Assembly: GCF_001419795.1 (NCBI RefSeq)
Contig: NZ_LIRL01000031.1
Location: forward strand, 1 to 37,302
Source of the DNA: Streptomyces niveiscabiei
GTDB lineage: Bacteria; Actinomycetota; Actinomycetes; Streptomycetales; Streptomycetaceae
Direction: 5' to 3'
DNA: 37,302 bases
The translations under genes were made by a program, and so were the position numbers. Of this stretch, positions 15,354-24,827 are shown piece after piece. Each line of letters begins with the position of its first letter. The first letter of the stretch is position 1. Below the pieces are notes generated by a model. It saw nothing but the letters and a program-made list of their open reading frames with translations, had not been told where the DNA came from and made no database searches.

Positions 15354-16763
15354 ATGAGTGAATCGGAAACCCTTACTTACGACGTGATCGTCATCGGCGC
15401 CGGGCCGGTCGGTGAGAACGTTGCTGATCGGACGCGGGCGGCGGGGCTGGCCACCGCGATCGTCGAGAGTGAACTCGTCGGGGGCGAGTGCTCCTACTGG
15501 GCCTGCATGCCGAGCAAAGCGCTGCTGCGGCCGGTCATCGCCCGTGCGGACGCGCGCCGGGTGCCGGGGCTGCGTGCTGCCGTCGCCGGGCCTCTCGACG
15601 TGCCCGCCGTCCTTGCCAACCGCGACTCCTTCACGTCGCACTGGAAGGACGACGGGCAGGTCGGGTGGGTCGAGGGGATCGGGGCGGAGCTGTACCGGGG
15701 GCATGGGCGTCTTGCCGGTGAGCGGACCGTGCGGGTCGGTGACAAGGTCCTGACGGCTCGGCATGCCGTGGTCGTCGCGACGGGGTCGCGGGCCGCTCTG
15801 CCGGGGCTGGAGGGGCTTGCGGAGGTGCGGCCGTGGACCAGTCGTGAGGCGACGAGTTCGCAGAGTGTGCCGGGGCGGCTGGTCGTCGTCGGCGGGGGAG
15901 TGGTCGCGGTCGAGATGGCCACCGCTTATCAGGCGCTGGGGTCGCGGGTGACGGTGCTGGTGCGGGGGAGCGGGGGGCTGCTGCCGAGGATGGAGCCGTT
16001 CGCGGGCGAGCTGGTCGCGGAGGCGCTCACGGAGGCGGGGGCGGAGATCCGTACGGGGGTGAACGTCGAGTCGGTGCGGCGGGAGGCGTCCGGCGCGGTA
16101 CGGGTCGCGCTGGACAGCGGGGACGTGATCGAGGCGGACGAGATCCTCTTCGCGACGGGCCGCGCGCCGCGTACGGACGACCTGGGCCTGGAGACGGTGG
16201 GCCTGACGCCGGGTACGTGGCTGGAGGTGGACGACACGCTCCAGGTGACCGGCGTGGACTGGCTCTACGCGGTGGGCGACGCCAACCACCGGGCCCTCCT
16301 CACCCACCAGGGCAAGTACCAGGCCCGTATCGCGGGCGCGGCGATCACGGCCAGGGCGGCGGGCGACCCCCTGGGCCCCGCGCACAAGGCGGTCGCCGAC
16401 CATCACGCCGTCCCGCAGGTCGTCTTCACGGACCCGGAGGCGGCCTCGGCGGGCCTGACCCTGGCCGAGGCGGAGTCCGCCGGGCACCGGGTCCGCGCGG
16501 TGGACGTGGAGCTCTCGTCGGTGGCGGGGGCCGGCCTGTACGCCGAGGGTTACCGGGGGCGGGCGCGGATGGTCGTGGACCTGGAGGAGGAGATCGTCAG
16601 GGGGGTGACCTTCGTGGGCCCCGGCGTGGGGGAGCTGATCCACTCGGCCACGGTCGCCATCGCCGGGCGCGTGCCGGTGGACCGGCTGTGGCATGCGGTG
16701 CCGGCCTATCCGACGGTCAGTGAGGTGTGGTTGCGGCTGCTGGAGGCGTACCGGGACCAGTAG
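15354..16763 (+). CDS. NAD(P)/FAD-dependent disulfide-reductase-like flavoprotein
   Basis: 469-residue class I pyridine-nucleotide disulfide oxidoreductase (dihydrolipoamide dehydrogenase/mercuric reductase fold). The FAD-binding GAGPVG is at residues 15-20. The redox pair is C46 and C51 in GGECSYWACMPSK, a changed form of the standard GGTCLNxGCIPSK. The NAD(P) site GGGVVAVEMA, the second FAD motif YAVGDANHRALLTHQGKY and the dimerisation domain follow. The C-terminal motif normally HPTxxE reads YPTVSE, so the catalytic His is a Tyr. The physiological substrate is unknown. The gene has no strong ribosome site before ATG 15354. The TnpB element lies just upstream. Confidence 0.9.
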   Translation: MSESETLTYDVIVIGAGPVGENVADRTRAAGLATAIVESELVGGECSYWACMPSKALLRPVIARADARRVPGLRAAVAGPLDVPAVLANRDSFTSHWKDDGQVGWVEGIGAELYRGHGRLAGERTVRVGDKVLTARHAVVVATGSRAALPGLEGLAEVRPWTSREATSSQSVPGRLVVVGGGVVAVEMATAYQALGSRVTVLVRGSGGLLPRMEPFAGELVAEALTEAGAEIRTGVNVESVRREASGAVRVALDSGDVIEADEILFATGRAPRTDDLGLETVGLTPGTWLEVDDTLQVTGVDWLYAVGDANHRALLTHQGKYQARIAGAAITARAAGDPLGPAHKAVADHHAVPQVVFTDPEAASAGLTLAEAESAGHRVRAVDVELSSVAGAGLYAEGYRGRARMVVDLEEEIVRGVTFVGPGVGELIHSATVAIAGRVPVDRLWHAVPAYPTVSEVWLRLLEAYRDQ

Positions 16764-16804
16764 GCGGGGTGCTGGTGTTCGCGGCACCCCCTGGAGCGGG
16801 CCTC

Positions 16805-17443
16805 TTAGGACAACGCGAACCCCAGCCCCTCCGCCGCCTCCCTCGGCGTCCCCTGGCCCCACCTCTGCGCCAGCACCTCGTTCGCGGCCAGCGACCGCAG
16901 CTCGGCCCGGTCCAGGTACAGCCCGCCGTCCAGGTGGTCCGTCTCGTGCTGGACGATCCGCGCGGCCCAGCCCGAGAAGACCTCGTCGACGATCCGGCCC
17001 GTCTCGTCCTCGCCCTTGAGCCGGACCTCGGCGTGGCGGGCGACGACCGCCTGGTAGCCGGGGACGCTGAGGCAGCCCTCGTAGAACGCGGCCCGTCCGG
17101 GGCCCACCCCTTCGTACGAGGGGTTGACCAGGACCCGGAACGGCTGGGGGGCACGGCTCCGCGCCGCCTTGATCTCCTCCGGGACCGTCGCCGGGTCCTC
17201 GATCACCGCGATGCGCAGGGGGACGCCGACCTGGGGGGCGGCGAGGCCCACTCCGGGGGCCGCGTGCATCGTGGTGCGGAGGGCCTCGATGAAGCGGGCC
17301 AGCAGGGAGGGGGCGAGCTGGCCCTCGTACCGGGGTGTGCCGGCGCGCAGGACCGGGTCGCCCGCCGCGACGATCGGCAACGGGCCGTCCGTGGCGAGGA
17401 GTTGCTCGATCCGGTCCGTGAGGGGGGTGTTCGGGGGTGTCAT
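16805..17443 (-). CDS. def: Peptide deformylase
   Basis: 212-residue metalloenzyme that removes the formyl group from N-terminal methionine of new proteins. All three motifs are intact: GVGLAAPQ (64-71), EGCLSVPG (122-129, metal-ligand Cys) and QHETDH (165-170, two metal His and the catalytic Glu). About 20 extra N-terminal residues precede the conserved start of the fold. ATG at 17443 fits the family; a longer open frame exists upstream but crosses the divergent promoter region. Streptomyces carry several def paralogues; this one is monocistronic and lies convergent to the flavoprotein gene. Confidence 0.95.
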   Translation of the reverse strand: MTPPNTPLTDRIEQLLATDGPLPIVAAGDPVLRAGTPRYEGQLAPSLLARFIEALRTTMHAAPGVGLAAPQVGVPLRIAVIEDPATVPEEIKAARSRAPQPFRVLVNPSYEGVGPGRAAFYEGCLSVPGYQAVVARHAEVRLKGEDETGRIVDEVFSGWAARIVQHETDHLDGGLYLDRAELRSLAANEVLAQRWGQGTPREAAEGLGFALS

Positions 17444-17473
17444 CGGGTCAGGATGCCACGCGGGCGACAGGGT

Positions 17474-17487
17474 GTGACGTAGGTCAC
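17474..17487. promoter_or_regulatory. Crp-like binding site upstream of the PepSY gene
   Basis: GTGACGTAGGTCAC matches the Streptomyces Crp pattern GTG-N6-GNCAC exactly. Read one base out, it is TGTGA-N6-TCACT, close to the E. coli Crp site. It lies in the 136-bp gap between def (minus) and the PepSY gene (plus). Confidence 0.45.
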
Positions 17488-17579
17488 TGAAATCGGCGGG
17501 AACTCGGCGCCGCCTTTCCCCGACTACTGAACCGCAACAGCTGACCGTCCCCGTCCCCAGCCCCCGGAGAACGCCGCCG

Positions 17580-18971
17580 ATGTCCACCGCTCCCCCGATC
17601 ACCACGGACGACGCCCCGACAGCGGACCCGGCGCCGAAGAAGCGGGGCCCGTGGGCGCCGCTGCGTCCGCTCGTCCTGCGGCTGCACTTCTACGCCGGAA
17701 TCCTGGTCGCCCCGTTCCTGCTCGTCTCCGCGCTGACCGGCCTTCTCTACGCCGCCTCGTTCCAGGTGGAGAAGATCGTGTACGCCGATGAACTCACCGT
17801 CCCGGTGGGCGAGTCGAAGCTCCCCATATCGGAGCAGGTCGCGGCGGCGCGCAAGGCGCACCCGGAGGGCACGGTCTCGGCGGTCAGGCCCTCGCCGAAG
17901 GACGACGCGACGACCCGCGTCCTGCTGTCCGGCGTGCCGGGCGTCGAGGCCACGCACACGCTCGCCGTGTTCGTGGACCCCTACACGGCGAAGGTGAAGG
18001 GCGACCTGGAGCAGTACGGCTCGACGGGCGCCCTCCCGGTGCGCACCTGGATCGACGAGTTCCACCGGGATCTGAGGCTGGGTGAGAACGGCCGCCTGTA
18101 CAGCGAGTTCGCGGCGAGCTGGCTGTGGGTGATCGCGCTGGGCGGCATCGTGCTGTGGTTCTCGCGGCGCAGGGCGCTGCGGAAGGTGCGCGGTACGAGT
18201 GGCCGCCGCCGCACCCTGGGCCTGCACGGCGCGCTGGGCGTCTGGGTGGCGCTCGGCTTCGTGTTCCTGTCCGCGACCGGCCTCACCTGGTCGAAGTACG
18301 CGGGCGAGAGCGTCACGCAACTGCGCACGTCCCTCGGCCAGACGACCCCGTCGGTGTCGTCGGCGGCGTCGGGCGGCGAGCACGCCGGACACGGCTCCGC
18401 CTCGGCGGCGGGCGGCACGGGCGAGCACGGCGTCGGCCTGGACAAGGTCCTCGCGGCGGCGCGGGCGAAGGGGCTCGGCGACCCCGTGGAGATCGTGCCG
18501 CCGGCCGACGCGGAGTCGGCGTACGTGGTCCGGCAGATCCAGCGCAGCTGGCCGGAGAAGCAGGACGCGGTGGCCGTGGACCCGGGGACGGGACAGGTCA
18601 CGGACACGGTGCGGTTCGCGGACTACCCGGTGCTGGCGAAGCTGACCCGCTGGGGCATCGACCTGCACACCGGCATCCTCTTCGGCCTGGTCAACCAGAT
18701 CGCGCTGGCGCTGCTGGCGCTCGCGCTGGTCACGATGATCCTGCTGGGCTACCGGATGTGGTGGCAGCGGGGGCGGGGCAGGGCGTTCGGGCGGCCGATC
18801 CCGAGGGGTGCGTGGGCGGAGGTCCCGCCGTACGTTCTCGTACCGGGGATGGCGCTGATCGCGGCGCTGGGCTACTTCGTTCCGCTGCTGGGGATTCCGC
18901 TCGCCGGGTTCATCGTGGTGGACGTGGTGCTGGGGGAGATCGCGCACCGCAGGAAGAAGACGGCGGCCTGA
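17580..18971 (+). CDS. PepSY-associated TM-helix membrane protein
   Basis: 463-residue integral membrane protein of the PepSY_TM family, seen in iron-siderophore reductases and related redox membrane proteins. A proline-rich cytoplasmic start is followed by the first helix in LHFYAGILVAPFLLVSALTG (residues about 36-55). Further helices lie near 185-200, 218-235, 362-385 and 412-455. Histidines close to helix ends (LRLHFY, FHRDLRL, LGLHG, IDLHTG) could bind haem or metal. A His/Gly/Ser-rich loop (GGEHAGHGS, about 263-285) sits outside. GGAG lies upstream of ATG 17580. Function in iron or copper handling is inference from the family. Confidence 0.85.
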   Translation: MSTAPPITTDDAPTADPAPKKRGPWAPLRPLVLRLHFYAGILVAPFLLVSALTGLLYAASFQVEKIVYADELTVPVGESKLPISEQVAAARKAHPEGTVSAVRPSPKDDATTRVLLSGVPGVEATHTLAVFVDPYTAKVKGDLEQYGSTGALPVRTWIDEFHRDLRLGENGRLYSEFAASWLWVIALGGIVLWFSRRRALRKVRGTSGRRRTLGLHGALGVWVALGFVFLSATGLTWSKYAGESVTQLRTSLGQTTPSVSSAASGGEHAGHGSASAAGGTGEHGVGLDKVLAAARAKGLGDPVEIVPPADAESAYVVRQIQRSWPEKQDAVAVDPGTGQVTDTVRFADYPVLAKLTRWGIDLHTGILFGLVNQIALALLALALVTMILLGYRMWWQRGRGRAFGRPIPRGAWAEVPPYVLVPGMALIAALGYFVPLLGIPLAGFIVVDVVLGEIAHRRKKTAA

Positions 18972-18980
18972 CGACACGTA

Positions 18981-19014
18981 CGGGGCCCGGTTCCTCTCGC
19001 GGAACCGGGCCCCG
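18981..19014. terminator. Bidirectional hairpin terminator
   Basis: Perfect 13-bp stem CGGGGCCCGGTTC (18981-18993) with its complement at 19002-19014 and an 8-base loop, between the convergent PepSY and MarR genes. Confidence 0.85.
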
Positions 19015-19020
19015 CGTCAT

Positions 19021-19458
19021 CTACAGGTCCAGCTGCGCCAGTTCGGCGTTCGCGCGCTGCGTCACCACCTCCAGCACCCGCCCCGCGACCGCCAGCTCCT
19101 CCTCCGTGAGCCCGGCGTAGATCCGCGCCGACGCCTCCGCGATCTCCGCGCTGGCCGCCGCGAAGAGCTCGCGCCCGGCATCGGTCGGCCGCAGGAGGCG
19201 GGGCCCGTCGAAGAACTCCAGCAGCCCCCGCGCGGCGAGATGCGTCACCGCCTCCTTCGACACGTCGAAGTCGTTCTTGAGGTCGATGGTGAGCTGGTCC
19301 GCGATGTCGTCCGGCCGGAAGGGGCCGTCGGCGGCGAGCGCGGCGCGCAGCGCGAGGTGGTCGAGGAAGCCGAGCTGGTGCCGGTCGAGGACCCGCTCGG
19401 CGACCGCGCGTCCGGCGTGGTGGGCGAGGCCGATGATGCGGCCGTTGACAGTGGTCAT
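19021..19458 (-). CDS. MarR-like winged-helix regulator, second gene of the pair
   Basis: 145-residue protein with a winged-helix pattern: DQLTIDLKNDFDVSKEAVTHL as the DNA-binding segment (about residues 54-74) and a wing at GLLEFFDGPRLLRPTDAG. Helices at both ends suit MarR dimerisation. It is translationally coupled to the upstream MarR gene, with the start codon overlapping its stop (4 bases, 19455-19458). Two small regulators in tandem suggest a heteromeric repressor or a regulator plus cofactor; this is inference. No enzymatic motif is seen. Confidence 0.8.
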   Translation of the reverse strand: MTTVNGRIIGLAHHAGRAVAERVLDRHQLGFLDHLALRAALAADGPFRPDDIADQLTIDLKNDFDVSKEAVTHLAARGLLEFFDGPRLLRPTDAGRELFAAASAEIAEASARIYAGLTEEELAVAGRVLEVVTQRANAELAQLDL

Positions 19459-19973
19459 GACGTCTCCCGAGTGATGTCGTGAGGTCGAGCGGTGTCGTCG
19501 TGGGGTCGAGCGGGGGTGTCAAGGGTCAGGGGTGTCTCCAGCAGCAGCCGCAGGTCGTCCGCGAAGGCCGTAGCCCGCGGGCTGTCCTGCCCTCCCAGCG
19601 GCGCCAGCATCTGGTCCAGCAGACTCTGCACCACTCCGATGGCCCGCCGGGTCACCGCGCTCCCCTCCTCCGTGAGGGTGAGCCGCATGGCCCGGGGATC
19701 GCGGGGGTCCTTCTCCCGTGAGAGCAGCCCGGCGGACTCCAGCGCCCGCGCCAGCTTGGAGACGTACAGCGCTTCGAGCCCCGTCCGGTCGGCGAGCCGG
19801 CGCTGGCTGGGCCGTACCCCCGCCCGCCGCATCCCGTGCAGCGAGGCCAGGACGACGTACTGCGCGTGCGTGAGACCCAGCGGAGCCAGCGCGCGGTCCA
19901 CCGCGACCCGCCACTTGCCCGCGAGGCGCCAGACCAGCGAGCCGTGCGTCGCCTGCTCGTTCCCGGTGCTCAT
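19455..19973 (-). CDS. MarR family transcriptional regulator
   Basis: 172-residue MarR repressor. The winged helix has RRLADRTGLEALYVSKLARALESAGLL (about residues 58-84) as helix-turn-helix, followed by the signature DPRDPRAMRLTLTEEG in the wing (93-108). The C-terminus carries a low-complexity repeat (ARPHDDTARPHD). It is divergent from the pirin gene; such MarR-pirin pairs usually mean that the repressor controls pirin and itself. It is the first gene of a two-gene operon. Confidence 0.92.
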   Translation of the reverse strand: MSTGNEQATHGSLVWRLAGKWRVAVDRALAPLGLTHAQYVVLASLHGMRRAGVRPSQRRLADRTGLEALYVSKLARALESAGLLSREKDPRDPRAMRLTLTEEGSAVTRRAIGVVQSLLDQMLAPLGGQDSPRATAFADDLRLLLETPLTLDTPARPHDDTARPHDITRETS

Positions 19974-19987
19974 GGATCGATACCGTA

Positions 19988-20011
19988 CATGGCTACTATG
20001 TCCATGGCTAC
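19988..20011. promoter_or_regulatory. Direct repeats in the MarR-pirin divergent region
   Basis: CATGGCTAC occurs at 19988-19996 and 20003-20011, 15 bp apart. The stretch from the first CATGG to CCATG also forms an inverted repeat. It lies right before the MarR start, where a MarR operator would be expected. Confidence 0.45.
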
Positions 20012-20064
20012 CATCCCGGCGAAGTCGCCGGACAAGACCCGCCCCACGGGGCTAGGTTGACCCC

Positions 20065-20250
20065 ATGAGCAACCTAGATCGGGCCCCGGCCCCCGCCGTC
20101 TGCGGCGGCCGGGGATTCGTCGTAGCGGAACCGGTACGCGAACTCCTCACCCCCCGCCGGGTCCAGCTCGGCGGGTCCACCGAGGTCCGCCGCCTGCTGC
20201 CGAACCTGGGCCGCAGGATGGTCGGCGCCTGGTGCTTCGTCGACCACTAG
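20065..20250 (+). pseudogene. Pirin-family protein, N-terminal fragment cut by the prophage
   Basis: The first 61 codons match the N-terminus of Streptomyces pirin-like cupin proteins (RRVQLGGSTEVRRLLPNLGRRMVGAWCFVDH) and then stop at TAG 20248-20250. In intact pirins VDH is followed by Tyr-Gly-Pro and some 250 more residues with the metal-binding cupin, none of which is present. The break coincides with the change from host to prophage genes, so the gene was split by integration; the rest should lie at the other prophage end, outside this window. Start ATG 20065, with the MarR gene divergent. Confidence 0.88.
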
Positions 20251-20275: not shown

Positions 20276-20335
20276 CGAAGCATGGTTACGAGGGTGCCTC
20301 AGGGAGCGATTCTTCTCCTGTAGGGCGACAAGCGG

Positions 20336-20364
20336 GAGCCCCGACCCGGTCTGGGTCGGGGCTC
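20336..20364. terminator. Strong hairpin near the prophage end
   Basis: Perfect 12-bp stem GAGCCCCGACCC with its complement and a 5-base loop. It can end the minus-strand accessory operon and transcripts from truncated pirin. The rest of 20251-20544 contains no convincing gene. Confidence 0.8.
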
Positions 20365-20367
20365 CGT

Positions 20368-20404
20368 GACCCTCTCTACCGCCTGGGGGGCATCAGAGAG
20401 GGTC
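20368..20404. repeat. Second hairpin, 10-bp inverted repeat
   Basis: GACCCTCTCT (20368-20377) pairs perfectly with AGAGAGGGTC (20395-20404) across a 17-base spacer, three bases from the preceding hairpin. On the minus strand it comes first after the accessory operon, giving tandem hairpins. A terminator or a recombination-site arm are the likely roles. Confidence 0.5.
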
Positions 20405-20544
20405 GCTGGGGTGACCCGCCGCCGGCGCACGGGGGTACGCGCGGCGGCGGGCCTGGCCGCCCCCGCCGTGGGGGACGAAGCGGGCGGCCGTCGTACCCGT
20501 GCTCTACCGTCCGGCGCCGCCGCCGTCACGGGAGAGTACGGGGG

Positions 20545-20751
20545 TCACGGGGTGCCGGTGTGGCCGGTGGCGTGGGTGCGGATCATGACGGCGTAGTCCG
20601 ACGCGCGGGAGCCGTCCCACGCCCGGAGAGCGTCCTCGCGCAGTCCGGCCAGCTCGGCGCAGCGCTCGCAGCCGGGGACCGGCTCGACAGGGGGCCCGTC
20701 CACCGACAGGTCGAACGGCTCAGGGGAACACGTCGTCTCGGACGTCCTCAC
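20545..20751 (-). CDS. Small conserved-looking prophage protein with CxxC, function unknown
   Basis: 68-residue acidic protein with one CERC motif (residues 28-31) that could hold a metal with a partner or form a disulfide. It starts at GTG 20751, overlapping the stop of the upstream gene by four bases (GTGA), so it is translationally coupled. I recognise no family. The coupling to two other genes and the orderly composition support a real gene. It is the last gene of the minus-strand accessory operon near the attachment site. Confidence 0.65.
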   Translation of the reverse strand: MRTSETTCSPEPFDLSVDGPPVEPVPGCERCAELAGLREDALRAWDGSRASDYAVMIRTHATGHTGTP

Positions 20752-21386
20752 TGACCCGCCTCCTCTGCCTTTTTCTTACGGGCCTCCTCAAGGGTTTCCT
20801 CGTGGGCGCGGAGGACGGGGAGGCCCCGGAGGATGAAGCCAGCGACGCGCTCGATCCGGCAGAGGTCGCCGACGAAGCGCGGCGGCACCGTCCAGTGGTT
20901 CCCCGGAGGCCGGGTGCGGCTGATGTCCGGCACTCCCAGCCAGGAGTCAGTCGTGCCGCTCGTGAGGTACGGGGCTTCGGGGTAGGGCCACTTGAGATCC
21001 TCGGCCGGGACGAGGGCGTAGTACGACACCCCGATCTCGTGCCGGTCGTGGATGACAGGACCGCGCAGTTCCTTCGCCAGGAGGGCGGCCACGGGCTTGT
21101 GGTCCGTGCTGCCGCTGACGAGGTGGATGAGGCTTCCGGGGATGCGTACGGCGGAGAACGGGCGGCCGAGGGGAAGAAGGGAAACTCCGTTCCTTGCCCA
21201 GTCGGTGTGTGCCTGCTCGGTCTTGCGATGGGCGCTCGCGAGCCACCCTCGGATCGCCCGCTCGCGGTCCCGGTCGGCGCCGACGGCGGAGGCCGGGAGG
21301 AGACCGGGGACCTTGGGAGGCGTGGGGTCGGCGGAAACCACGACGCCGGCGGCGGGTGTGTCAGGCGGAGGACTGGTGTCGGTCAT
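20748..21386 (-). CDS. Hypothetical protein of the prophage accessory operon
   Basis: 212-residue soluble protein that I do not recognise. A proline-rich start is followed by a compact domain from about residue 45 (RAIRGWLASAHRKTEQAH, HTDWARNGVSLLPLG, VSYYALVPAEDLKWP, GNHWTVPPRFVGDLCRIERV) and a charged helical tail rich in Glu and Lys (EETLEEARKKKAEEAGQ). The pattern TDWARNGVSLLPLGRPF recalls primase-polymerase-like N-terminal domains in Streptomyces elements, but no catalytic motif is visible, so I make no functional claim. ATG 21386 overlaps the upstream stop (ATGA), and the next gene overlaps its own stop; the three genes form one unit. Confidence 0.75.
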   Translation of the reverse strand: MTDTSPPPDTPAAGVVVSADPTPPKVPGLLPASAVGADRDRERAIRGWLASAHRKTEQAHTDWARNGVSLLPLGRPFSAVRIPGSLIHLVSGSTDHKPVAALLAKELRGPVIHDRHEIGVSYYALVPAEDLKWPYPEAPYLTSGTTDSWLGVPDISRTRPPGNHWTVPPRFVGDLCRIERVAGFILRGLPVLRAHEETLEEARKKKAEEAGQ

Positions 21387-21595
21387 GCTGCGGGCTCCCC
21401 TTGCTGGAGTGCGTACGCGAGTCGGAGGGCCACATCCGCCCGGATACGGCCGAGTTCCACGAGCCCGAGACTCGGCGAGCCGGGGTCTACTCCGAGCGAC
21501 GGCAGCACGATCCCGGCGCGGTCCAGCGCCGTGCGAAGTACCTCCACGGCTGAGAACGGATCGACGGCGGGCGTAGTTGCAGGAGCAGAGGCCAT
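21383..21595 (-). CDS. Small hypothetical protein, first gene of the minus accessory operon
   Basis: 70-residue helical protein (RTALDRAGIVLPSLGVDPGS, LVELGRIRADVALRLAYALQ). No family recognised. Two starts are possible: ATG 21595 and GTG 21604; GGAG at 21602-21605 on the complementary reading is not clear enough to decide. It opens the three-gene minus operon and is divergent from the DUF6879/Scr1 pair, with tandem 10-bp repeats in between. The overlapping stop/start with the next gene supports that it is translated. Confidence 0.7.
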   Translation of the reverse strand: MASAPATTPAVDPFSAVEVLRTALDRAGIVLPSLGVDPGSPSLGLVELGRIRADVALRLAYALQQGEPAA

Positions 21596-21619
21596 GAACA
21601 GCACCGTACGAAGCGCCTG

Positions 21620-21648
21620 TTGACAGGCACCACGCTATGTTCTCGAAT
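21620..21648 (+). promoter_or_regulatory. Promoter of the DUF6879/regulator operon
   Basis: A perfect TTGACA -35 box (21620-21625) is followed after 17 bases by TCGAAT (21643-21648, 4 of 6 matches to TATAAT). The -10 box lies inside the first pair of tandem repeats, so the repeat-binding factor could control it. The transcript would carry a leader of about 120 bases before ATG 21775. Confidence 0.5.
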
Positions 21649-21687
21649 GTTCTCGATGGGTAGCCGGATGTTCTCAGATGGTCTCGA
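21637..21687. repeat. Four ATGTTCTCGA-type tandem repeats (operator array)
   Basis: ATGTTCTCGA occurs twice in direct tandem (21637-21646, 21647-21656). After 11 bases come two variants, ATGTTCTCAG (21668-21677) and ATGGTCTCGA (21678-21687). The pairs are 31 bp apart, near three helical turns, and each unit is one turn long. They lie in the divergent gap of the accessory locus and overlap the predicted -10 of the plus-strand promoter. Confidence 0.8.
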
Positions 21688-21774
21688 ATAGTGGGCGTGA
21701 CTCTGCATGACTGCCCCGCTACCGGGGCCATGCTGAAGACGCGGGAACTCCAACTACTCCCAGGGAGGCACCAC

Positions 21775-22527
21775 ATGGCCCGACGCCTGCGGTTCAACGG
21801 GACCGACAGCAAGCACGGCGGATGCCCGGCCTTGCACGAGGACATCGACTCGAAGGAGATCGTCGTACAGGGCAAGCCCCTCACCGACCCCGACGACATT
21901 GCCCAGCTCCAACACCTCAGTCCCGGCGAAGTCGCAGTGCTCGTCCCTCGGGAACTCCTGGTCAACCACGGCCCCAAGGAGATGGACCGCGTGCCCAAGC
22001 TCATCACCCTCGAAGAGTTCGGCCAGCTTTTCCACCACATCGAGCATTCGGCCTGGCACCTGGAGACCCGGCGTGGGTACGCGTCCGACCGCGAGGACTC
22101 CTCCTACGCAGCCTTCCTGGAAACCGGCACCACCCCGATGGATCTCGACAGCGAGTGGTGCGTGAACATCCGGGAACAGACCTCGCAGGGCAAGCGCATC
22201 GGCCGCGTCCGCGTCGTCGACAACCCGCCCACCGAAGGGCAGTTGTTCCTCCTCAGCTACGCAGAGTGCAACGCGGCGACCGGCGAGGACGTCCGCAGCA
22301 TCTGGCGCGACGACGCCGCACGGGTTCACCTTCCGAACGAAGACTTCTGGATCTTCGACAGCCGACTCGTCGCTGTTCTACGGTTCGACGACGACGATGT
22401 CCTCCTCGACATCGAGGTGATCACCGAGCCTGCCGAGGTGCTGCGGTACTGCCAGGTCCGTGACGCCGCGGTCCACGCGTCCATCCCGTACGACGAGTTC
22501 GGGGCCCAGCTCCACACGAAGGGGTAA
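21775..22527 (+). CDS. DUF6879 family protein with extra N-terminal domain
   Basis: 250-residue protein. An N-terminal part (about residues 1-70: RRLRFNGTDSKHGGCPALHE, LSPGEVAVLVPRELLV) precedes the DUF6879 region (about 75-245: LITLEEFGQLFHHIEHSAWHLETRRGY). That region ends with EDFWIFDSRLVAVLRFDDDD and IEVITEPAEVLRYCQVRDAA. DUF6879 genes commonly sit beside Scr1-type helix-turn-helix genes, as here (9 bp apart). Its FWIFDSRLV closely matches FWIFDERLV in the regulator, hinting at a shared fold. The biochemical role is unknown; a partner in a toxin-antitoxin or signalling pair is possible. Start ATG 21775 has GGGAGG upstream. Confidence 0.82.
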   Translation: MARRLRFNGTDSKHGGCPALHEDIDSKEIVVQGKPLTDPDDIAQLQHLSPGEVAVLVPRELLVNHGPKEMDRVPKLITLEEFGQLFHHIEHSAWHLETRRGYASDREDSSYAAFLETGTTPMDLDSEWCVNIREQTSQGKRIGRVRVVDNPPTEGQLFLLSYAECNAATGEDVRSIWRDDAARVHLPNEDFWIFDSRLVAVLRFDDDDVLLDIEVITEPAEVLRYCQVRDAAVHASIPYDEFGAQLHTKG

Positions 22528-22536
22528 CCGCGCCCG

Positions 22537-23391
22537 GTGAGCACCGACTTCCAGCAGGCCCGAGAAGCCCTCGGTATCCGCCTCAGGGAACTACGGCTGT
22601 CGGCGCCTGGAGGTCGGCTCACCGGACCACGACTTGCCCAGCGGCTCGGGTGGCCGCACTCGAAGATCTACAAGCTGGAGAACGGCCAGCAGACGGCGAC
22701 CGCCGCTGACCTCCGCGCCTGGGCGGACGCCGTCGAAGCCCCCAACGTCTACGACGAGTTGGAAGCACGGCTACGGGGCTTCGAGTCACACATCCGCTCC
22801 TGGCGCCGTCAGCTCGCGGCGGGCCACCGCCCGGTGCAGGACAGTTGGAACCTGGAGGTGGAGCGGTCCACTGTCATCTACGCCTGGGAAGAGGCAGTCA
22901 TCCCCGGCATGCTCCAAACCCCCGACTACGCCCGCGCGATCTTCATTCGCTACGCCGAGCTTTTTGGGTCGACGCGCGACACCGAGGAAGCTGTTCGTGC
23001 CCGCGATCTACGCCAGAAGTGGCTGTACGACGGTCGGCATCGGTTGCACGTTCTGATGTGGGAAGCGGCTCTCCACGCACTGATCTGCTCCCCCTCCGTC
23101 ATGGTCGCGCAACTCGATCGCCTGGTGGGTGTGATCGGCATGGACACGGTGGAGTTGGGGATTATTCCGCTCAGTGCCTCACTCAAGATCCCTGCCGCCA
23201 ACGGTTTCTGGATCTTCGATGAGCGGCTCGTGATCACCGAGGACTGGCACGCCGAGCTGTGGCTGAATGACGCGGATTCCCTCGCCACCTACCTGAGAAT
23301 CTGGCGAACTCTGCGGGAGTCGGCGGTCTACGGGGCGGACGCGCACGCTGTGATTGCGCGGGCCCGCCGCGCTGTCCAGCCTCGGACATGA
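22537..23391 (+). CDS. Scr1-type helix-turn-helix regulator with DUF5753 domain
   Basis: 284-residue regulator. The XRE-type helix-turn-helix is in GPRLAQRLGWPHSKIYKLEN (residues about 30-49); the DUF5753 effector/dimer domain follows from about residue 90 (RSTVIYAWEEAVIPGMLQTP, MVAQLDRLVGVI, then FWIFDERLV at 224-232). In Streptomyces such proteins pair with small DUF397 or DUF6879 partners and act like antitoxins or switch regulators. Start GTG 22537 is 9 bp after the DUF6879 stop. It is the best candidate to bind the tandem repeats upstream of the operon. The gene ends at a hairpin shared with the lysis genes. Confidence 0.9.
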   Translation: MSTDFQQAREALGIRLRELRLSAPGGRLTGPRLAQRLGWPHSKIYKLENGQQTATAADLRAWADAVEAPNVYDELEARLRGFESHIRSWRRQLAAGHRPVQDSWNLEVERSTVIYAWEEAVIPGMLQTPDYARAIFIRYAELFGSTRDTEEAVRARDLRQKWLYDGRHRLHVLMWEAALHALICSPSVMVAQLDRLVGVIGMDTVELGIIPLSASLKIPAANGFWIFDERLVITEDWHAELWLNDADSLATYLRIWRTLRESAVYGADAHAVIARARRAVQPRT

Positions 23392-23395
23392 CGAA

Positions 23396-23431
23396 GCGGC
23401 CCCCGCTCTCCCGAAGGAGCGCGGGGGCCGC
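23396..23431. terminator. Bidirectional hairpin between accessory locus and lysis genes
   Basis: A long GC-rich stem (GCGGCCCCCGC-TC with GAGC-GCGGGGGCCGC, one small bulge) with an 8-base loop, placed between the convergent regulator and holin-like genes. It insulates the accessory locus from late transcription. Confidence 0.85.
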
Positions 23432-23433
23432 AG

Positions 23434-23727
23434 TCACGTGCCGTCAGGTATCCGGGTCTCGACTCTCGTGATCCGGGTCTCGTGATCCGTGAGGCGCTCG
23501 TCGTGCTCGCCGAGGCGGACCATCACCCCCGGCCGGGCCGGTACTCCTGGCCGTTCGGGGGCGCCGAGCCAGTCTTCCCTGATCTCGTCGACCAGGTCCG
23601 CGATCCGTAGGACCGCCCGCAGCAGTCGCCACAGCAGGGCCGCCAGCGCGCCGAGCGCGGTGATCCCGACGGCCCACGCCACCATCATGTCGACGCTCGC
23701 CACACCGGTCGTCGCCTCCGCCGTCAT
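23434..23727 (-). CDS. Small membrane protein, holin-like, with charged coiled tail
   Basis: 97-residue protein with one strong hydrophobic segment (MMVAWAVGITALGALAALLW, residues about 14-33), then amphipathic and charged regions ending in a heptad-like stretch (LGEHDERLTDHETRITRVET). One membrane helix followed by a coiled-coil tail is common for phage holin or spanin-like proteins. ATG 23727 overlaps the stop of the previous gene by four bases. It is the last gene of the late operon, next to the terminator. Assignment as holin rests on position and topology. Confidence 0.7.
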   Translation of the reverse strand: MTAEATTGVASVDMMVAWAVGITALGALAALLWRLLRAVLRIADLVDEIREDWLGAPERPGVPARPGVMVRLGEHDERLTDHETRITRVETRIPDGT

Positions 23728-23951
23728 CTACCACCCTCGCCCTCGTCCGTACGGAGCCAGCCCGGGAGGAGCGCCTGGACGCCGGGCAGCGCCATGACCC
23801 GGGTCGTCCCACCCGCGACGGCGAGCGCGCCGGCCACCCACGGCAGCGCGGCCGGGATTCCGGACGCGGAGACGACTGCGGGGAGGACGGCCGCGATACC
23901 GAGGCCTGTCTGGAGGATCGTGCGCGCGGTGCGCTTCGCCGCGTCGGACAT
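23724..23951 (-). CDS. Small membrane protein, probable holin
   Basis: 75-residue protein with two hydrophobic segments (about residues 12-30 and 35-52: TGLGIAAVLPAVVSASGI, ALPWVAGALAVAGGTTRVMA) and a charged C-terminus (RTDEGEGGR). Two-helix proteins of this size directly behind an endolysin gene are typical class II holins, and actinophages often carry this type. It starts three bases after the endolysin stop and overlaps the next membrane-protein gene. The two may act together or antagonistically. Confidence 0.78.
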   Translation of the reverse strand: MSDAAKRTARTILQTGLGIAAVLPAVVSASGIPAALPWVAGALAVAGGTTRVMALPGVQALLPGWLRTDEGEGGR

Positions 23952-23954
23952 GGG

Positions 23955-24827
23955 TCAGGCTCCCTTCGCGGCGAGGGCCGCAGTCAGCTTCTCGACAGCC
24001 GTGGTGAGGCTGTCGAGCCTGGCGGCGAGCGCGTCGTAGTGCGCGTCGCCGTACTCCAGGAACGTGCTGGCGGCCGTCGGCGTGGGCTTGCCCGCCGCGT
24101 CCTTGCGGAAGCGGTTCGGGATCGGGTGCTTCCAAACTTCGGCGGCGATCTCCTTGGCAGTGGCCATGTCGGTGTCCTCCTCGGACGTGGGGGTGGCGCC
24201 CTTCGCGAGGGCTATGAGGCGGGAGAAGTTGATCGAGCCCGGGTCGCCGTGGGTGTTCTCCGGAACGTGCATGTGCCCGCACACTCCCCGGAACTTGTTC
24301 CACTGCTCGTACGACATCCGCGCCTTGGCCGCGCCGTACGACCCCGGGTACGCAGGCCACGACGCCGGGCCGGTCAGGGGCACCCCGTGCTGGGTGTGCA
24401 TCCACCTGAGGAACTGAGCGAGGTCGAAGAGCGCCCACTCCGGCGCCTCGGGCCAGTAGATGAAGTTGACGTTCTGCCGCTTCCCCGCCTTCACCCACTC
24501 GGCTCGGGTCGCCGGGTCGCAGGTGCCGACCAGTTCGACCTGTGCGACGTTGTTCGTGTTCGTCTCCACCCCGCCCTTCAGGTTGACGAGAGCGCGCGCG
24601 GAGACATCGACGTCGAAGTGCTGGAACCACCGCAGCTTCCCTGCGGTGAAGTCCGGCACGGCGGTGAGCGTCGGAGCGCTCGCACCGCCGCCGTAGTCCG
24701 GCAGCGTCCGGCCCTCCGTCGTGTGGAGGACGACGACGTTGACTTCCATCGGGCTTCCGCCGTACTTCCCCTGGTAGCGGTACTGCTGGCTGGCTCCCGG
24801 GTAGAGCTGGGGTCCGGTCTTGGGCAT
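23955..24827 (-). CDS. Endolysin, N-acetylmuramoyl-L-alanine amidase family
   Basis: 290-residue lysis enzyme cleaving the amide bond between muramic acid and the peptide. The amidase_2/PGRP-like domain fills about residues 25-205: VVVLHTTEGR carries a probable zinc His, and GVCGHMHVPENTHGDPG carries the second His-rich ligand set near 180-196. The remainder (from about MATAKEIAAEVWKHPIPNRF) is a separate C-terminal region ending in a short helix repeat (LDSLTTAVEKLTAAL) and probably binds the cell wall or oligomerises. It has no signal peptide, so it needs the holins next door. ATG 24827 has GAAGGGAA upstream. Confidence 0.9.
   Translation of the reverse strand: MPKTGPQLYPGASQQYRYQGKYGGSPMEVNVVVLHTTEGRTLPDYGGGASAPTLTAVPDFTAGKLRWFQHFDVDVSARALVNLKGGVETNTNNVAQVELVGTCDPATRAEWVKAGKRQNVNFIYWPEAPEWALFDLAQFLRWMHTQHGVPLTGPASWPAYPGSYGAAKARMSYEQWNKFRGVCGHMHVPENTHGDPGSINFSRLIALAKGATPTSEEDTDMATAKEIAAEVWKHPIPNRFRKDAAGKPTPTAASTFLEYGDAHYDALAARLDSLTTAVEKLTAALAAKGA

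Follow-up and report, generated by a model that had tools for sequence, protein, structure and literature searches.

The locus considered here occupies positions 20545-23391 of a 37,302-nt stretch of DNA from Streptomyces niveiscabiei (the window), which is one contig of a 9.5-Mb host assembly. The analysis showed that it is an ordered, widespread regulatory module with its own operator, carried in this genome by a prophage. Its unit is a pair of genes, one encoding a DUF6879 protein and the other a helix-turn-helix (HTH) regulator with a DUF5753 domain, divergent from variable small genes, most often of the kind named P0003 below. We consider it quite probable that the locus serves as a self-contained, locus-specific switch, a lysogenic-conversion cassette of a temperate phage, in which the regulator would act through an array of direct repeats and together with the DUF6879 protein.

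Five open reading frames (ORFs) were confirmed inside the prophage: three overlapping genes on the minus strand, P0003 (21383-21595, the ORF extending to 21604; about 70 aa), P0002 (20748-21386; 212 aa) and P0001 (20545-20751; 68 aa), and two genes on the plus strand, P0004 (21775-22527) and P0005 (22537-23391). The two divergent operons, P0003-P0002-P0001 and P0004-P0005, are those that a sequence-only reading of the window had described. P0004 is a long form of DUF6879 (Pfam PF21806; E 2.5e-52, 177.1 bits against a cut-off of 23.9) with a conserved N-terminal part of 80 aa. The earlier assignment of P0005 as an Scr1-type regulator was confirmed by its Pfam matches to HTH_31 (E 1.1e-10) and DUF5753 (E 1.7e-33), both above cut-off, which place it in the WhiJ/Scr1 type. 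As to novelty, DUF6879 is mentioned by no paper in the open literature searched (subscription papers lay outside this scope), which agrees with the suggestion that the arrangement is an undescribed one.

To define the conserved unit, relatives of the proteins were sought in 150 genomes of the genus, and a long DUF6879 match at E<=1e-25 was found in 62 of them. Two collections of loci were compared: a first set of 40 DUF6879 loci, mostly best-ranked matches with some listed places left out, and a separate scan of the best 80 of 483 relatives, which together with the window gives 81 loci (13 of these, window included, repeat loci of the first set). In the first set, all 40 DUF6879 genes were immediately followed on the same strand by an HTH-DUF5753 gene, and the pair was present in 77 of the 81; five of the host's six other DUF6879 genes likewise adjoin a regulator of this type. 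The genes divergent from the pair are variable. They were P0003-like in 49 of the 81 loci, P0001-like in 10 and P0002-like in 7, as called with permissive thresholds under which some weak matches are probably spurious. Among the 40 loci of the first set, P0001-like genes (E<=1e-3) stood divergent beside other DUF6879-HTH pairs at 8, and a methyltransferase cassette took the divergent position at 6. Since the pair is constant while the divergent genes vary, the latter are exchangeable cargo. P0001, P0002 and P0003 were found together with the pair only in the window, in S. acidiscabies (L176, with an IMG/VR counterpart, L044) and in S. neyagawaensis (L180), and we therefore rejected the five-gene block of the sequence-only reading as the unit. 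Of the two other occurrences, L176 has two broken frames and L180 a P0002 gene that is a distant relative.

The cargo families have distributions of their own. P0002 relatives occur in 51 of the 150 genomes (39 loci, a part of the match list, formed the P0002 set) and P0003 relatives in 102 (E<=0.001). An HTH-DUF5753 gene adjoins the P0003 relative in 28 of the 29 best-scoring loci, including all 14 distant ones that are without DUF6879.

These gene contents bear on the possibility that the locus is a type II toxin-antitoxin (TA) system of the XRE-DUF397 kind, with a small protein or DUF6879 as the toxin and P0005 as the antitoxin. An antitoxin-like HTH regulator, small partner genes and carriage on a mobile element would all suit such a system, and XRE-DUF397 pairs had been predicted to be TA systems, according to one report (PMC7159879). 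However, no DUF397 gene was found by Pfam among the five locus proteins, the HTH protein has DUF6879 as its constant partner, the small genes being exchanged between loci, and in S. acidiscabies the P0002 and P0003 frames are broken with the HTH gene intact. In addition, type II TA behaviour was reportedly absent from 14 pairs of the XRE-DUF397 kind (PMC10364602). We regard a TA role as distinctly unlikely.

The intergenic region between the two operons contains four direct repeats on the plus strand, predicted to be operator repeats: DR1 (ATGTTCTCG, 21637-21645), DR2 (ATGTTCTCG, 21647-21655), DR3 (ATGTTCTCA, 21668-21676) and DR4 (ATGGTCTCG, 21678-21686), spaced 10/21/10 bp. When the upstream regions of 44 loci were scored, 10/21/10 ranked first of 7,803 spacings (mean 26.66 of 32 versus a mean of 20.98 over all spacings, standard deviation 0.50), and it ranked first again in 68 loci outside the first set (27.34 versus 20.97, standard deviation 0.55). 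Tested individually against Markov resamples, the array was significant at p<=0.01 in 29 and at p<=0.05 in 36 of the 44 loci. A score of at least 27 was reached in 23 of the 44 loci versus 28 of 516 control upstream regions taken from these loci, and all 28 of these border the same intergenic region. No array was detected at the 14 distant P0003-HTH pairs without DUF6879 (20.93 at 10/21/10 versus a mean of 21.16), one of which has only 75 bp of intergenic sequence. We concluded that a predicted direct-repeat operator, a feature known from WhiJ9, is present in the divergent intergenic region.

The array stands in a fixed relation to the divergent promoter. A -10-like box, TACGGT (21603-21608, minus strand), lies 7 nt before the ATG at 21595, and a TAnnnT box followed by a divergent ATG was present in 58 of 78 loci, the motif occurring in 3.9% of shuffles. 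All but one of these 58 loci (57/58) have a distance of 39 or 40 bp between the ATG and the array. The GTG at 21604 lies inside the conserved -10-like box and is therefore disfavoured as a start, so that the first gene of the minus-strand operon most likely begins at the ATG at 21595. This geometry suggests that the P0003 message is probably leaderless, in which case the array would be situated at about -41 to -91.

The array appears to be peculiar to the locus. The exact pattern TGTTCTCNNNTGTTCTC has a single occurrence in the 9.5-Mb host assembly (degenerate sites were not counted). A weight-matrix scan gave scores of 35.5 and 30.3 at the locus and 14.3 at the next site of the window; on contig G000:C835, which carries the other end of the prophage (see below), nothing exceeded 1.8. 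Because there is a single exact site in the genome and scores on G000:C835 are so low, P0005 is, on these sequence grounds, most likely a local regulator and not the phage repressor. That P0005 is the prophage immunity repressor, with the array as one of its operators, would agree with an HTH protein lying in a prophage next to an operator array, but we hold this to be highly improbable, and a prophage repressor role was rejected for want of a comparable array on G000:C835 (best score 1.8 against 35.5 and 30.3). That contig itself encodes two small HTH-like proteins (recognised by eye); prophage DNA on further contigs, if any, was covered by the exact-pattern search alone. Furthermore, the module is not bound to this one phage: of the 80 related loci only 4 show any additional DNA similarity to the window, although unrelated prophages may surround the others.

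The specificity of the array was then related to the regulator. The recognition helix of P0005 contains WPH41SKIY45K, in which residues 41 and 45 correspond to two DNA-contacting residues of the phage 434 repressor, Gln29 and Gln33. From 103 loci non-redundant at 95% regulator identity, we kept the 78 with arrays scoring at least 28 of 36, a level reached by 0.3% of resamples; L044, whose P0005 is truncated by the contig end, did not enter these tests of the code. Among 201 variable regulator columns, residue 41 showed the strongest association with the repeat word (partial r 0.705, overall divergence removed), followed by residue 45 (partial correlation 0.558). Residue 41 was also first of 196 columns (0.497), with residue 37 second, when the first set was analysed at a looser threshold (38 of 43 loci). 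The pairs of residue 41 and base in the 78 loci were H-G (43), G-T (14), K-G (8), Q-A (6), N-T (3), R-G (1) and V-T (1), where the reading register for the K41 group was offset by one base; the exceptions were one H-T, with Ser at 45, and one K-A. On a tree built without the helix residues there were 14 changes for residue 41, 13 for the base and 15 for the joint label, and nearly 27 joint changes would be expected if residue and base changed independently.

Genomes with several copies of the cassette provide a further view of this code. Three genomes, G022, G091 and G338, have different codes in each of two or three readable copies (the sets being H/K/Q, N/Q/K and H/Q), and so does G050 (Q/N), with one borderline array; by our rough arithmetic the chance of such differing codes is about 0.05-0.07. 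This count leaves aside L304/L132 and L305/L126, which denote identical places; L303 has no HTH match, and G075, G016, G126 and G319 (at least one copy without a readable array) as well as G039 (second copy without an array) were excluded. For L112 (G091), at which the automatic choice missed the array, the earlier array reading was used. A wider proposal, to which we give somewhat less than an even chance, is that the DUF6879-HTH cassettes are a large Streptomyces family of mutually insulated switches whose specificity is re-coded mainly via residues 41 and 45, with copies coexisting without cross-talk. The rigid four-word 10/21/10 operator would be read by the HTH and probably by a DUF6879-DUF5753 complex built on dead phospholipase-D folds. 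Owing to the re-coding, several copies could coexist, riding phages and plasmids, each with a swappable cargo operon.

The structure predicted for P0004 gives a hint to its part in the switch. The model has a mean predicted local distance difference test (pLDDT) score of 87, above 90 in the DUF6879 part, and it matches the phospholipase-D (PLD) proteins Nuc (1byr; Z 11.2, 136 residues aligned, root-mean-square deviation (rmsd) 3.8 Å) and SauUSI (7clg; Z 11.6, 148 aligned, rmsd 3.7 Å). Matches were also obtained to NucT, Zucchini, PLD3/4, BfiI and NgoAVII, and to the effector domains of TrmB/TrmBL2 (Z 9.3-10.5); the best Foldseek E value was 3e-4. DUF6879 is accordingly predicted by modelling to have a PLD superfamily fold. 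The HxKxxxxD (HKD) motif was found in 0 of 50 DUF6879 sequences, and the place of its Lys is taken by Asp in 50 of 50 (alignment made by eye). In sequence searches of solved structures P0004 gave no match, A5 no meaningful match, and A4 weak matches, mainly to HTH proteins. When the DUF6879 profile was compared with that of the HTH-DUF5753 family, hhalign paired FWIFDSRLV and FWIFDERLV (probability 70, E 4e-5), which suggests that DUF6879 and DUF5753 may share one fold, so that DUF5753 too may be PLD-like.

The PLD-like model also touches the idea that the locus is an anti-phage defence or superinfection-exclusion island, in which the DUF6879-HTH pair would sense infection and switch on protective small proteins. 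The lysogenic-conversion position, the recurrence on viral contigs, plasmids and one seeming integrative element, and the similarity of the P0004 model to restriction enzymes with a PLD fold (7clg, 4rct, 2c1l) speak for it; PLD-fold and Prim-Pol-like domains occur in defence proteins. On the other hand, no PADLOC family was matched beyond weak HTH-level matches of P0005 (capH 22.5 bits, HTH_VI 13.5), the HKD motif is absent in 50 of 50 sequences, P0002 is without a conserved catalytic set, and a methyltransferase cassette faces at least 6 of 40 copies instead. With these PADLOC results and no DUF397 gene, the defence, immunity or TA role thought plausible in the sequence-only reading finds no support yet, and we think a defence function unlikely.

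Taken together, we favour the following mechanism for the locus-specific switch. P0005 would use its recognition helix, in which residues 41 and 45 set the base preference, to bind the four direct repeats (21637-21686) as two pairs separated by 31 bp. It would thereby control the divergent, probably leaderless operon P0003-P0002-P0001, whose small proteins may act on the host, and also its own DUF6879-HTH operon. Activation of the divergent operon is our first guess, because about -41 to -91 is an activator-like position for the array. P0004 would modulate P0005, probably as a partner or sensor whose PLD fold is catalytically inactive, and so take the role of the DUF397/BldB proteins in the WhiJ/Scr1 case.

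This mechanism has a close precedent in WhiJ9, the nearest studied relative known to us. Activation of the divergent, leaderless gene iosA depends on WhiJ9, which binds to a set of three direct repeats upstream of that gene (PMC10294661). As described there, the iosA-whiJ9-bldB9 locus of S. venezuelae resembles the present one in having a WhiJ-type HTH regulator divergent from a small-protein gene, a leaderless message and intergenic direct repeats. It has, however, three repeats (consensus CGXXCTCAAC) located 113 bp upstream of the iosA start, and the DUF397 partner BldB9. In the window locus the repeats number four, spaced 10/21/10, the distance to the divergent ATG is about 40 bp, the partner is DUF6879 and the cargo genes differ. 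The Scr1/Scr2 and XRE-DUF397 pairs of S. coelicolor are likewise two-gene units of an XRE-DUF5753 regulator and a partner (PMC10364602), but in the window the partner that precedes the HTH gene is DUF6879 (250 aa, with a PLD-like predicted fold) and there is no DUF397. The modelled likeness of DUF6879 to the effector domain of archaeal TrmB/TrmBL2 would be a case of a similar fold used in regulation, although that domain is fused to a DNA-binding domain and DUF6879 is a separate protein. In those parts of the DUF5753, DUF397 and WhiJ literature that were accessible (subscription papers being outside the scope), we met no description of the array, the residue-base code or the PLD-type fold. We concluded that the window cassette is a variant of the WhiJ/Scr1 kind, in which the array, the code and the partner fold are new here.

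The same precedents raise the question of what the cassette regulates. By analogy with iosA-whiJ9-bldB9 and Scr1-Scr2, it may serve the element by regulating the development or specialised metabolism of the host, with the small proteins as developmental effectors. The accessible accounts of WhiJ9-iosA (PMC10294661) and Scr1/Scr2 (PMC10364602) favour this, as does the methyltransferase cassette faced by 6 of 40 copies, but P0001-P0003 match none of four family libraries (Pfam, NCBIfam, PHROGs and PADLOC). We treat it as a serious possibility, while leaning slightly against it.

Several observations weigh against the switch as proposed and against its code. Eight of the 44 loci are without a significant array (p>0.05), and 25 of the 103 loci fell below the array threshold and were dropped from the code test. 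The third-best column in that test was residue 125 (0.534), which is outside the HTH, and residue 45 was only fourth in the analysis of the first set. When ancestral states were assigned, residue and base changed together on 7 of 20 change branches, the residue only on 7 and the base only on 6; part of the residue-base coupling is phylogenetic. The PLD match is that of a predicted model, with Z about 11 and an rmsd of 3.7-3.8 Å, and the homology of DUF6879 to DUF5753 is no more than suggestive. Computation established the gene pair, the repeat array, the coupling of residue and base, the layout of the promoter, the one exact site and the PLD-like model; the binding, the direction of control, the partnership of P0004 with P0005 and an action of the small proteins on the host are inferred, and control of the divergent operon may be by repression instead of activation.

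As for the small cargo proteins, P0001, P0002 and P0003 gave no match in the four libraries named above. P0001 has, by eye, a CxxC and a C-terminal HxxxH, which resemble zinc-binding motifs, and P0003 is the probable leaderless first gene of the divergent operon. P0002 belongs to a recurrent family of the genus. Its model (pLDDT 80, nine sequences) has Prim-Pol domains, among them those of pRN1 ORF904 and NrS-1, as its top nine matches, at Z 4.8-5.8, which is below the clear level of the tool; the next match is at 3.1. There was no Foldseek match at E<=0.001, and no match of the P0002 profile to solved structures. The Prim-Pol catalytic motif consists of an acidic pair and a His; P0002, unlike pRN1 ORF904 and NrS-1, has one conserved Asp near the expected place (D114, 20/22) and no conserved His. 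A Prim-Pol-like fold without the conserved catalytic set is thus possible from the model.

Some cargo relatives were found in other settings. At L135, L138, L139 and L140 a P0002-family gene lies beside an ATP-grasp gene of the MvdD type (families tested on representatives), and at L135, L139 and L140 a PCMT methyltransferase gene is beside it as well; at L139 and L140 it is divergent from an HTH-family regulator of more than 400 aa. A link of the P0002 family to graspetide clusters is possible. These neighbours had prompted a reading of P0003 or P0001 as a ribosomally synthesised and post-translationally modified peptide, which was rejected, there being no such enzyme among the five proteins. 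The methyltransferase cassettes (L095, L096, L114, L121, L122 and L124) consist of small genes, F6 (167 aa, of no known family) and the S-adenosylmethionine methyltransferase F8, and they face the same kind of operator array.

The prophage itself was delimited from its attachment (att) site. A chromosomal pirin-type gene, which begins at 20065 and whose name we take to be apt (its 3' part has a Pfam pirin match), is cut at the core GTCGACCACTA (20239-20249), and of the 61 genomes compared, 33 have a homologue of this gene whose match breaks off exactly at 20249 (rows counted by hand). The missing 3' part is on contig G000:C835 of the same genome (L052/L173), where a large serine recombinase, named by eye, directly adjoins the att junction; the 11-bp core GTCGACCACTA is common to both junctions and lies within an imperfect dyad. 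Because the homology ends at 20249 and the remainder of the gene stands beside a recombinase on G000:C835, the DNA to the right of 20249 is a prophage. To the left, 15530-20033 has 91% DNA identity to S. acidiscabies (L176). The genes at 23434-24827 are termed lysis-type by resemblance: 23434-23727 has a weak Pfam match to XhlA (E 0.042), and two of its neighbours that were tested had no Pfam match. The five genes thus lie between the att site and the lysis-type genes and are bounded by two strong hairpins, one terminator-like and 3' of the minus-strand operon (20330-20372, minus strand; -32.3 kcal/mol, z -4.5), the other between P0005 and the convergent lysis-type genes (23390-23436; -38.7 kcal/mol, z -6.7). 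This supports the earlier description of an accessory, non-structural, self-contained locus, insulated by hairpins and in the lysogenic-conversion position of a prophage. Beside the att site, a hairpin-rich stretch of 95 bp (20405-20499) has an 87% identical copy at G000:C525:17242-17334.

Carriage on other elements was also recorded. The gene order of L180 is P0001, a distant P0002 relative, P0003, DUF6879 and HTH, followed by lysis-type genes; in this second prophage-like locus one lysis-type gene is 75% identical in DNA to that of the present phage and the surrounding genes look alike by eye, while the chromosomal neighbourhood differs, being near a gyrA-like gene (named by eye). The IMG/VR contig L047 keeps P0003, DUF6879 and HTH, with a different second gene. 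L211 lies, by eye, between an FtsK-like gene and, at its opposite end, genes for a tape-measure-like protein and a tyrosine recombinase. P0004 has matches in 27 plasmid records at E<=1e-25, 23 of them covering at least 80% of P0004; no match was found for P0004 in the INPHARED phage records, nor for the locus DNA in phage records. In phage TurkishDelight (L042, gp44-gp45) an HTH gene and a P0002 relative stand in divergent orientation; placed after the manner of this prophage, they fill the slot that separates the lysis genes from excisionase/integrase. In S. acidiscabies NRRL B-16521 (L176:4630-8566) the same five-gene locus adjoins an intact but inverted pirin gene, and no phage genes were recognised on its other side. 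Its HTH gene is intact; because its P0002 and P0003 frames are broken and its DUF6879 has an internal deletion, this copy resembles a relic. The counterpart L044:2093-5207 has a second P0001-P0002 pair beyond the inverted pirin start, with a different HTH gene of about 410 aa upstream.

Streptomyces has many XRE-DUF5753 regulators, with links to development and antibiotic production, and to our knowledge the DNA sites of only a few of them are known. From sequence, this subfamily gains a predicted operator, a residue-to-base code, a predicted layout of the target promoter and a predicted fold of the partner. The predicted code would make targets predictable and single-residue experiments feasible, and the DUF6879-HTH cassettes are candidate orthogonal switches for Streptomyces engineering. 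The cassette also illustrates how a lysogen may receive cargo together with an insulated regulator from the phage that it carries.

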